From Actinomycetota bacterium (GTDB taxonomy: Bacteria > Actinomycetota > Aquicultoria > Aquicultorales > Aquicultoraceae), in contig JASEGT010000001.1 in NCBI GenBank assembly GCA_030018005.1, positions 1 to 64,000 on the forward strand: DNA of 64,000 bases. The letters are read 5' to 3'. The position numbers and the translations under genes were made by a program. Below are positions 31,753 to 35,017 of the stretch, piece after piece (the first letter of the stretch is position 1; every line of letters begins with the position of its first letter). A model generated the notes under the pieces. The model was not told the origin of the DNA. It did no database searches and saw only the letters and a list, made by a program, of their open reading frames with translations.

Positions 31753-33597
31753 ATGAAGAATAGGCCGGTCAAGATAACCGATACGACATTGCGAGATGCG
31801 CACCAGTCGCTGTGGGCTACTCGTATGCGTACAGACGATATGCTAAAGATTTTAGAACACCATGACCGTATCGGCTATTATTCATTGGAGGTCTGGGGCG
31901 GCGCCACTTTCGACGCGACACTCCGTTTTCTGGACGAGAATCCTTGGGACAGGTTGAGGGTCATCAAGAAGCATGCCCCCCGCACCCCGCTACAAATGTT
32001 GTTGCGAGGACAGAATCTGGTTGGATATCGTCAGTATCCCGATGATATCGTGCGCCGGTTCGTCCACGCGTCAGCCAAGAACGGCATGGACATCTTTAGG
32101 TGTTTCGACGCGCTCAATGATACGAGAAACCTAAAGGTATCGATAGACGCAGTCAAAGAAGCGGGTGCCCACGCGCAGGGCGCCGTCTGTTACACGATAA
32201 GCCCCGTGCACACATTGGAGCACTATATAGAAACCGCTATCGAGCTAGTGGAAATGGGTGTCGATTCTATTTGCATCAAGGATATGGCGGCACTCCTTAC
32301 ACCTTACAGGACGCAAAAACTAATCGAGCGCTTGCGTAAAGAGGTTGAGGTGCCGATCGATTTACACTGCCATTACATCGGCGGAATGGCGCCGATGAAT
32401 TACCTGAAGGCAATCGAAGCCGGCGTTGATATTATCGATACGGCGACAGTGCCGCTCGCATTCGGCAACTCACAGCCGGCTGTCGAGATGATTGTCGCCG
32501 CGCTCAAAGACACACCCTATGACACCGGCTTTGACCTGGATGAACTCTTCCACATCGCGAAATACTGGGAAGATATAAGAGGCAAGCGGGGTTTCCTAAG
32601 AGGCGTGACGTCGCTTGCGAACATGCAGGTCTTTGCTCACCAAGTTCCCGGCGGCATGATATCAAACCTGGAAAGCCAGCTCGAGCAACAGAAATCAGCC
32701 GACCGGCTCGACGAGGTGCTCGAGGAGATTCCTAGAGTACGCGCCGAGGTGGGCTATCCGCCGTTGGTAACACCTATGAGCCAGATAGTCGGGACGCAGG
32801 CCGTATTAAATGTGCTCACCGGAAAGCGTTGGGCGATTATACCGGACGAGATGAAACAATACATCAGAGGCCTATATGGTCGTGCGCCAGGGCCTATGGA
32901 TAAAGATATCGCTTCGAAGATACTCGGTGACGAAGAGGTGTTGACATGTAGGCCGGCCGATTTAATTACCGAGACATTCGACGATTACGCAAAAGCCATC
33001 GGCGACTTAGCCAAGAGCGAAGAGGATGTGTTGACGTACGCATTGTTCCCGAATGAGGCCAGAAAATATCTAGAGTCTCATGTGGACGGTGCGGAAAAAG
33101 CGGTATTTATGATGAGCGAAGAAATAGGGTCCGCCAGGGAGGACGGGGTTATGGATATAAATCAGATCAAAGAACTCATAAAGATAGTCGACGAGAGCGG
33201 CGTTTCGGAGGTGACCGTTGAGGAAAACGGGGTGAAGATAGCCGTGCGCAAAGGCGGTTTAACAGCGGCAGTCGAAGCACCCATAGTGTCAACAGGCAAT
33301 GGGGAGACGATGGCGCCAAAAGAGGCGCAGGAAGCAGGCGAATACCCGGAGCACTGGAAGAAGATAGTAGCGCCGATGGTCGGGACGTTCTACAGTTCGG
33401 CTTCTCCGGGCGCGGACCCATTTGTAGAGGTAGGCGATGAGGTATCAGAAGGCCAGACACTATGTATCGTCGAAGCGATGAAGTTGATGAACGAGATAGC
33501 TGCGGAAGAAAAAGGTATAGTCCGGGCTATAGCGGTCGGCAACGGCGATTCGGTAGAGTATGGCCAAATCATGTTTATGTATGAGACTAGCGTTTAG
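31753..33597 (+). CDS. PycB/OadA-type carboxyltransferase fused to AccB-type biotin carrier
   Basis: 614 aa. Residues about 1-455 form the carboxyltransferase barrel of the pyruvate carboxylase B / oxaloacetate decarboxylase alpha / transcarboxylase 5S family: TDTTLRDAHQSLWATRMRT, carbamylated Lys176 in CIKDMAA, metal ligands His205 and His207 in LHCHYIGG. From Met467 the sequence is a complete AccB: MDINQIKELIKIV at its start, a linker, then APMVGTFYSSASPGADPF with the AccB thumb and EAMKLMNE with biotinyl Lys577. Ordinary PycB/OadA end in a thumb-less biotin domain. AGGGAGG lies 8 nt before the internal ATG 33151, so a free AccB may also be made. accC follows. No membrane OadB is nearby, favouring pyruvate carboxylase. 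Confidence 0.88.
   Translation: MKNRPVKITDTTLRDAHQSLWATRMRTDDMLKILEHHDRIGYYSLEVWGGATFDATLRFLDENPWDRLRVIKKHAPRTPLQMLLRGQNLVGYRQYPDDIVRRFVHASAKNGMDIFRCFDALNDTRNLKVSIDAVKEAGAHAQGAVCYTISPVHTLEHYIETAIELVEMGVDSICIKDMAALLTPYRTQKLIERLRKEVEVPIDLHCHYIGGMAPMNYLKAIEAGVDIIDTATVPLAFGNSQPAVEMIVAALKDTPYDTGFDLDELFHIAKYWEDIRGKRGFLRGVTSLANMQVFAHQVPGGMISNLESQLEQQKSADRLDEVLEEIPRVRAEVGYPPLVTPMSQIVGTQAVLNVLTGKRWAIIPDEMKQYIRGLYGRAPGPMDKDIASKILGDEEVLTCRPADLITETFDDYAKAIGDLAKSEEDVLTYALFPNEARKYLESHVDGAEKAVFMMSEEIGSAREDGVMDINQIKELIKIVDESGVSEVTVEENGVKIAVRKGGLTAAVEAPIVSTGNGETMAPKEAQEAGEYPEHWKKIVAPMVGTFYSSASPGADPFVEVGDEVSEGQTLCIVEAMKLMNEIAAEEKGIVRAIAVGNGDSVEYGQIMFMYETSV
33151..33597 (+). CDS. accB: possible internally initiated AccB (biotin carboxyl carrier protein)
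   Basis: This frame is nested in the carboxyltransferase fusion. ATG 33151 has AGGGAGG at 33136-33142 with an 8-nt spacer, as good as any ribosome site in the window, and falls exactly where stand-alone AccB proteins begin (MDINQIKELIKIVDESG). The product would be 148 aa, a normal AccB length, with the biotinylation motif EAMKLMNE. Either this is a relic of recent gene fusion by loss of a stop codon or it is a working second start. Translation from it is inferred, not shown. Confidence 0.5.
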   Translation: MDINQIKELIKIVDESGVSEVTVEENGVKIAVRKGGLTAAVEAPIVSTGNGETMAPKEAQEAGEYPEHWKKIVAPMVGTFYSSASPGADPFVEVGDEVSEGQTLCIVEAMKLMNEIAAEEKGIVRAIAVGNGDSVEYGQIMFMYETSV

Positions 33598-33667: not shown

Positions 33668-35017
33668 TTGTTTCGAAAAGTGTTAATAGCAAACAGGGGT
33701 GAAATCGCGGTACGGGTGATTAGGGCCTGCAAAGAGCTAGGAATCCCGACCGTAGCTATTTACTCGGAGGCGGATACGGAGGCCCTTCACACAAAACTGG
33801 CGGACGAAGCTGTCTGTGTGGGCCCGGCTCAGACGCATCGCAGCTACCTCAGTATTCCGAATATTATCAGCGCGGCCGAAGTCACGGGCGCGGACGCGAT
33901 TCATCCGGGTTATGGGTTTTTAGCGGAGAACCATCAGTTTGCAGATATATGTAAATCTTGTCATATAACCTTCATTGGGCCGTCGGCCGAAGCGATAGAG
34001 TCGATGGGACACAAATCGGAAGCACGGCGGCGCATGACGGCAGCGGGAATACCGGTAACGCCCGGAACCTCGGGGTCGGTCGCGGGTGAAAAGGAAGCGG
34101 TAAAAGCCGCTAAAGAGATTGGTTACCCGGTGATGATAAAGGCTTCGTCTGGAGGCGGCGGCCGGGGCATGAGGGTAGCCCAGAACGAGAGAGAAGTTAT
34201 CAAGTTCCTTCAGATGGCGCAGGCCGAAGCTAAAGCGGCATTCGGCAATGACGAAGTCTATATGGAGAAGTTCGTCGAAAAACCGCGCCATATCGAGTTT
34301 CAAATAATCGCCGATTCTTTTGGAAACGTAGTCCACCTCGGAGAGCGCGATTGTTCCATACAGCGCCGGCACCAAAAATTGATCGAGGAGTCGCCGTCGC
34401 CGTCGATATCGGCCGAGCAGCGCGCCGAGATGGGCGAGGTGGCGGTGCGGGCGGCGAAAGCTGTCGATTATGTCAATGCCGGGACCATAGAGTTTCTGGT
34501 CGAGCCGGACGGCAGTTATTATTTCATGGAGATGAACACTCGCATTCAGGTCGAGCATCCTGTAACCGAGATGGTGACCGGCGTGGACCTAATAAAAGAA
34601 CAAATCAAAGTCGCAGGTGGTGAGGCTCTCAGTTTTACACAGGATGATATCAAAGCTAACGGGCATGCCATCGAGTTTAGAATAAATGCCGAGGATCCGG
34701 ATAAAAATTTTATGCCGGCGGGCGGCAAAGTTCTGCTTTACAACCCCCCGGGGGGACCCGGCGTGCGTATGGATAGCCATCTTTATACAGGCTATGAGGT
34801 GCCGAGTTATTACGACTCGCTCCTGGCGAAGCTAGTTGTTTGGGGCAACGACAGAAACGAAGCGATAGATAGGGGCAGAAGAGCCCTGGAAGAATGTGTT
34901 ATCATGGGCTTAGCGACGACGATACCGTTTCACCTAAGAGTTCTCGATAACGCGATTTTCAGGAAGGGCGAGGTTTACACGGACTTTATCGCCCAGTGGA
35001 TATTGAATGACCAGTAA
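33668..35017 (+). CDS. accC: biotin carboxylase
   Basis: ATP- and bicarbonate-dependent carboxylation of biotin on the carrier protein. 449 aa, standard AccC length. [25 protein letters not shown] at the N terminus, GYGFLAEN, the ATP-grasp glycine loop [43 protein letters not shown], and [14 protein letters not shown] near the active site. The frame is open from TTG 33638, but AAGGGAG at 33655-33661 sits 6 nt before TTG 33668, which gives the canonical start. It can serve the fused carrier and, if made, free AccB. No accA/accD in the window. Confidence 0.95.

Follow-up and report, generated by a model that had tools for sequence, protein, structure and literature searches.

A fused and a free biotin carrier very probably made from a single gene: a carboxyltransferase-AccB fusion with a conserved internal start in Actinomycetota

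The short form of CcmM arises by internal initiation, and the acyl-CoA carboxylases of Actinomycetota have one alpha chain that is common to several carboxyltransferases. Two-subunit pyruvate carboxylases in which the beta subunit joins a carboxyltransferase to a biotin carrier are known (PMC5059739; PDB 5ks8), as are tri-subunit acyl-CoA carboxylase complexes in Actinomycetota (PMC13118682). Several genes yield both a long protein and its C-terminal portion. Internal in-frame initiation yields a free C-terminal domain in the case of Cas8b/Cas11b (PMC11899642), the long M58 and short M35 forms of CcmM co-assemble (PMC8580825), and short C-terminal products are described for SpaO (PMC13059759) and for two-product endolysins (PMC9430671).

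Anatomy and relatives of the fused gene

The window, which is the whole stretch of 64,000 nucleotides that was analysed, contains an open frame on the forward strand (31753-33597) in which a carboxyltransferase comes first and AccB follows, with the AccC gene directly downstream. The features discussed below are these:

31753..33597, forward strand: fused gene for a PycB/OadA-type carboxyltransferase and AccB, 614 aa, about 67 kDa
31753..33117, forward strand: carboxyltransferase part, residues 1-455, with motifs DTTLRDAHQS, HCHYIGG and CIKDM retained
33136..33142, forward strand: internal Shine-Dalgarno (SD) sequence AGGGAGG, 8 nt before the internal start
33151..33153, forward strand: putative internal start codon ATG (GTG in most Coriobacteriia), in frame with the fused ORF
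33151..33597, forward strand: AccB, 148 aa (about 16 kDa) as predicted internal product; it comprises the N-terminal helix, the thumb and the biotinyl motif EAMKLMN
33668..35017, forward strand: AccC biotin carboxylase, sole copy in the genome, from TTG 33668 with AAGGGAG upstream

An earlier note on this DNA had described the gene as a carboxyltransferase fused to a complete AccB, a description borne out by profile matches above their cut-offs and by structural alignment. The 614-aa protein matched the NCBIfam models for pyruvate carboxylase subunit B (PRK09282; 838.2 bits, residues 5-609, cut-off 402) and for BCCP/AccB (TIGR00531; 145.5 bits, residues 467-609, cut-off 115.2). Taken alone, the 148-aa internal product scored 150.2 bits against TIGR00531, with the same cut-off of 115.2, and covered profile positions 1-154 of 156. 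Its closest solved structure is the full-length BCCP 4hr7_B, to which it aligns from residue 1 (mdinqikelikivdesgvsev). The AccB thumb segment GTFYSSASPGADP of the internal product aligns with GTFYRTPSPDAKA of the 4hr7 BCCP, and the biotinyl-lysine motif EAMKLMN is likewise aligned to the BCCP of that entry. The locus has the makeup of subunit B of a two-subunit pyruvate carboxylase, namely a pyruvate-type carboxyltransferase and a C-terminal carrier with AccC downstream; the carrier itself has what marks an AccB, a whole-length TIGR00531 match together with thumb and biotinyl motif, in a genome that encodes AccA, AccD and AccC. The AccC ORF is listed from TTG 33638; translation more probably begins at TTG 33668, which is preceded by AAGGGAG.

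Searches suggested by the same note for other fusions and for unfused gene pairs found both. Fifty-one further loci from other assemblies, with 58-99% identity to the carboxyltransferase part, carry the carboxyltransferase-AccB fusion, which rules out an assembly artefact or a chance ORF. The fusion is conserved across the class of the window genome and into the Coriobacteriia/Eggerthellaceae. In Chloroflexota relatives the carboxyltransferase and a carrier are encoded by separate adjacent genes, which fits an origin of the fusion from such a pair.

The internal Shine-Dalgarno sequence and start codon

The presence of AGGGAGG and ATG 33151 inside the fused gene was confirmed, with the two 8 nt apart and the ATG in frame, and comparison with relatives, proposed earlier as a check on conservation, revealed strong purifying selection on this site across the class and beyond. 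At the aligned position, the 88 distinct core-clade loci have GTG (54) or ATG (34) and never another codon (0), nearly always behind a strong SD at a near-fixed spacing of 8-9 nt; in a minority of loci the SD is weaker, at -5.8 to -7.5 kcal/mol. Within the core clade ATG and GTG have interchanged at least five times, as judged from a tree of only the carboxyltransferase part; a change to a non-start codon has never occurred in that clade.

The strength of the SD was compared with a null in which synonymous codons were resampled by each gene's own codon usage. Among 67 representatives with less than 92% identity, the duplex with the anti-SD had a mean of -10.2 kcal/mol, against -7.2 kcal/mol for the null (standard deviation of the mean 0.35), and the SD was equalled or exceeded at just 46 of 2998 other in-frame ATG, GTG or TTG codons. 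Locus by locus the test is weak (median p 0.31) because the Lys/Arg-Glu residues at this site favour SD-like codons, and it is the pooled and per-column tests that carry the signal. Since the compared sequences are related rather than independent, z-values overstate significance, and ranks within the gene were preferred.

Codon use at the junction departs sharply from that elsewhere in the same genes. Valine at the internal start is encoded by GTG in 40/40 cases (38% elsewhere), arginine at the SD by AGG or AGA in 20/21 (21% elsewhere), and glutamate at the SD by GAG in 61/62 (64% elsewhere). In one locus (L152) the SD arginine codon has changed to a glycine codon (GGG), with GGGGAGG retained. 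A scan of the whole gene for synonymous constraint placed its top four of 612 windows over the junction; among single columns, the start codon and the SD glutamate codon scored highest. The 50 nt around the internal start have a mean MFE of -6.9 kcal/mol, compared to a gene mean of -12.2 kcal/mol. The internal SD is also stronger than the best candidate SD of the main start in 41 of 56 genes; the values for the window gene are -10.6 and -5.4, respectively. As judged from these alignments, codon choices at the junction follow the SD and the start rather than the amino acids, and the internal SD and start are, on the same grounds, maintained by selection. A conserved start, an SD at initiation spacing and selection at synonymous sites occur here together, as in a gene with internal initiation, and initiation at 33151 is predicted with high confidence.

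A second strong cluster of synonymous conservation lies in the carboxyltransferase part, around GYPPLVTP (about 32749-32775 of the window, codons -134 to -127 relative to 33151). Codon preference at Pro-Pro is possibly its cause.

Carrier supply and competing explanations

A search for another accB, also proposed earlier, found no second AccB or AccC in the window genome, which is Candidatus Aquicultor-like (2.19 Mb, 99.4% complete). It has one AccB, which is the C-terminal part of the fusion, one AccC, AccA, AccD and one biotin ligase (BirA) domain protein, and the only other PF00364 protein above the cut-off is a 2-oxoacid dehydrogenase E2 acyltransferase. The genes accD and accA of this genome (L189, 4011-8125) lie directly downstream of an apparent trpB-trpA pair, away from the fatty-acid genes and from accB/accC. 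Within the class, accA is present in 36/36 genomes and an AccB match in 32/36, with one AccB gene in each: 31 genomes have a single match, and the two partial matches of G031, which lie at contig ends, are apparently one split gene. Nearly all of these AccBs lie within a frame of about 610-650 aa, the shorter ones being those of G019 (at a contig end), G023 (310 aa) and G031. In a sample of the phylum searched for biotin/lipoyl domains at E 1e-5, the fusion is the sole such protein in 20 near-complete related genomes (families f55, f81, f84 and f32, and two of f31), all of which have accA, and the internal ATG or GTG is kept in 20/20. Since the fusion is the only visible carrier in these cells, their acetyl-CoA carboxylase must use the product of the fused gene in some form.

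These findings are best explained by two products of the gene, very probably a fused carrier and a free one. Ribosomes starting at 31753 would produce the carboxyltransferase-AccB fusion, which would be the beta subunit of a pyruvate carboxylase with two subunits. Those starting at the internal SD and ATG 33151 would produce free AccB, which would act in acetyl-CoA carboxylase as the carrier for AccA and AccD, whose genes lie elsewhere. The single BirA would biotinylate both carriers and the single adjacent AccC would carboxylate both. This reading as a whole, with free AccB for acetyl-CoA carboxylase and the fusion for pyruvate carboxylase, is probable, and supply of free AccB to acetyl-CoA carboxylase is likely to be the main role of internal initiation. 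The part assigned to AccB in acetyl-CoA carboxylase is suggested by its status as sole carrier, and pyruvate carboxylation by the fusion is a prediction from sequence. The proposal in the earlier note of one gene, a fused and a free AccB and one AccC stands as far as the sole AccB and AccC and the selected SD and start are concerned, and is qualified by counter-signals from two families, f47 and f17. More tentatively, the choice of start site may feed two carboxylases, the fused form leading to oxaloacetate and the free form to malonyl-CoA, such that the ratio of initiation determines how carbon is divided between anaplerosis and fatty-acid synthesis, an arrangement that would be conserved across a broad actinomycetotal radiation including the Eggerthellaceae of the human gut.

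Similar fusions in f38, f53, f62, f26, f17 and Kiritimatiellota lack a start codon at the corresponding place in the alignment. Of these, f38 is sister to f32 (support 99/100). In f32 the ATG is kept in 8/8 cases and the fusion is the sole carrier, whereas in f38 the internal start is lost in 4/4 and an extra free carrier is present, which is not AccB-like and which in L182 adjoins genes of the methylmalonyl-CoA-decarboxylase/propionyl-CoA-carboxylase type. The contrast is suggestive rather than proof, because it is a single sister contrast and the extra carrier is not AccB-like. In two of the f26 fusions (L162 and L163) an in-frame ATG lies two codons upstream of the aligned position and close to a GGAG-like run; a third (L165) lacks it. 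This ATG may possibly be an independent internal start.

Some lineages keep the internal start under circumstances that bear on its role. In f47, accB-accC-accD-accA form part of a fatty-acid operon, yet the fused gene still keeps its internal SD and ATG; in G366 the internal site is kept and accA was not found by the search. Such persistence is what would be expected if free AccB were a stoichiometry partner within pyruvate carboxylase, forming mixed fused and free assemblies on AccC, with supply of acetyl-CoA carboxylase secondary. The fused carrier also retains the AccB N-terminal segment, alignable to the full-length 4hr7 BCCP, and co-assembly of long and short forms is documented for CcmM M58/M35 (PMC8580825) and for SpaO (PMC13059759). 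This account is nevertheless unlikely, as the gene is the only visible acetyl-CoA carboxylase carrier in the 20 genomes and in the whole class, and the fusions of f38, f53, f26 and f17 manage without a short form.

Eggerthellaceae with two AccBs also keep the internal GTG of the fusion. In both genomes examined (G060 and G302) the second AccB belongs to a 5-oxoprolinase-like PxpB/PxpC-AccB-AccC cluster and is not found with fatty-acid genes; these neighbours speak against its being the fatty-acid AccB, and the fatty-acid enzyme may therefore still depend on the fusion. Two such Eggerthellaceae clusters (L186, 2347-6256; L187, 2373-6822) encode PxpB- and PxpC-like proteins, AccB, AccC and an apparent DUF1445-type protein. 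Each looks like a 5-oxoprolinase-like set that has a biotin carrier and a carboxylase to itself. At another Eggerthellaceae locus (L193, 5231-7798) accA lies within an ORF of about 850 aa that resembles an AccD-AccA fusion, in a fatty-acid cluster without accB or accC.

The f17 genomes (e.g. G079, 98% complete, and G182) have accA, the fusion as their only AccB-type carrier and no usable internal start, so that fused AccB may serve acetyl-CoA carboxylase directly. These genomes lend support to another reading, in which internal initiation is of little note: the fusion alone would serve both enzymes, and the SD and start would be kept for some other purpose, for instance ribosome pausing at the domain border as the protein folds, or a protein-level constraint on KEDGYMD. 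The amino acids at the site, Lys/Arg-Glu, do themselves favour SD-like codons, as the null mean of -7.2 indicates. Neither pausing nor protein constraint, however, explains the restriction to ATG and GTG, the use of GTG for every valine at the start or the near-fixed spacing of 8-9 nt; constraint on the choice among synonymous codons goes well past what the amino acids require and the region is unstructured, which makes this explanation improbable. Taken together, f47, G366 and f17 indicate that free AccB may be of use without being essential, or that pyruvate carboxylase itself may draw on it as well.

The adjacent separate genes for carboxyltransferase and carrier in Chloroflexota would be compatible with the internal start being a neutrally decaying relic of a recent gene fusion, but the fusion extends throughout the class and is found in Coriobacteriia too, and the start and SD are nonetheless still present in 88 loci and rank first in the scan for synonymous constraint, so a relic is highly improbable. 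The alternative that the fusion belongs to an oxaloacetate decarboxylase, as its alpha subunit, and not to a carboxylase has almost nothing to recommend it, since its 717.6 bits against TIGR01108 (oadA) fall under the model cut-off of 756.5, whereas PRK09282 is far exceeded, the window genome has no PF03977 match and hence no OadB-type membrane subunit of a sodium-pump oxaloacetate decarboxylase, and AccC is directly downstream.

Comparison with known systems

The open-access literature searched held no relevant report of the fusion, of internal initiation in a biotin carrier or of a carrier shared with pyruvate carboxylase, which is not proof of absence; the combination is a new arrangement of known parts. 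If the dual-product reading is true, an essential subunit of fatty-acid synthesis is hidden within another gene in a large bacterial group, ordinary annotation would score such organisms as having no AccB, and one gene and one biotin carboxylase would provide a compact supply for two central carboxylases. The group includes cultivable gut species, where this reading is directly testable.

As in PycA and PycB (5ks8), the biotin carboxylase of the system described here is a subunit by itself, and the carboxyltransferase is followed by the carrier in a beta subunit of about 67 kDa. Unlike in PycA and PycB, the carrier is a full AccB that includes the AccB N-terminal segment and thumb, the biotin carboxylase is the sole AccC of the genome, and the fused gene has a conserved internal start. 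The carrier resembles bacterial AccB (TIGR00531; PDB 4hr7, 1bdo) in its whole-length match above a curated cut-off, but it occupies the C-terminal quarter of a carboxyltransferase gene rather than a separate gene. As in the acyl-CoA carboxylases of Actinomycetota, one carrier and biotin-carboxylase set would serve more than one carboxyltransferase; there the shared chain is a BC-BCCP that is always the same protein, whereas here a fused and a free carrier would come from one gene. With CcmM M58/M35, SpaO, Cas8b/Cas11b and the endolysins it would share the use of one ORF for two proteins, a long one and its C-terminal domain with a start of its own, proposed in the present case from sequence. 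The short products of those systems co-assemble with, or serve, the same machine, whereas free AccB would work for a different enzyme, one that belongs to another pathway.
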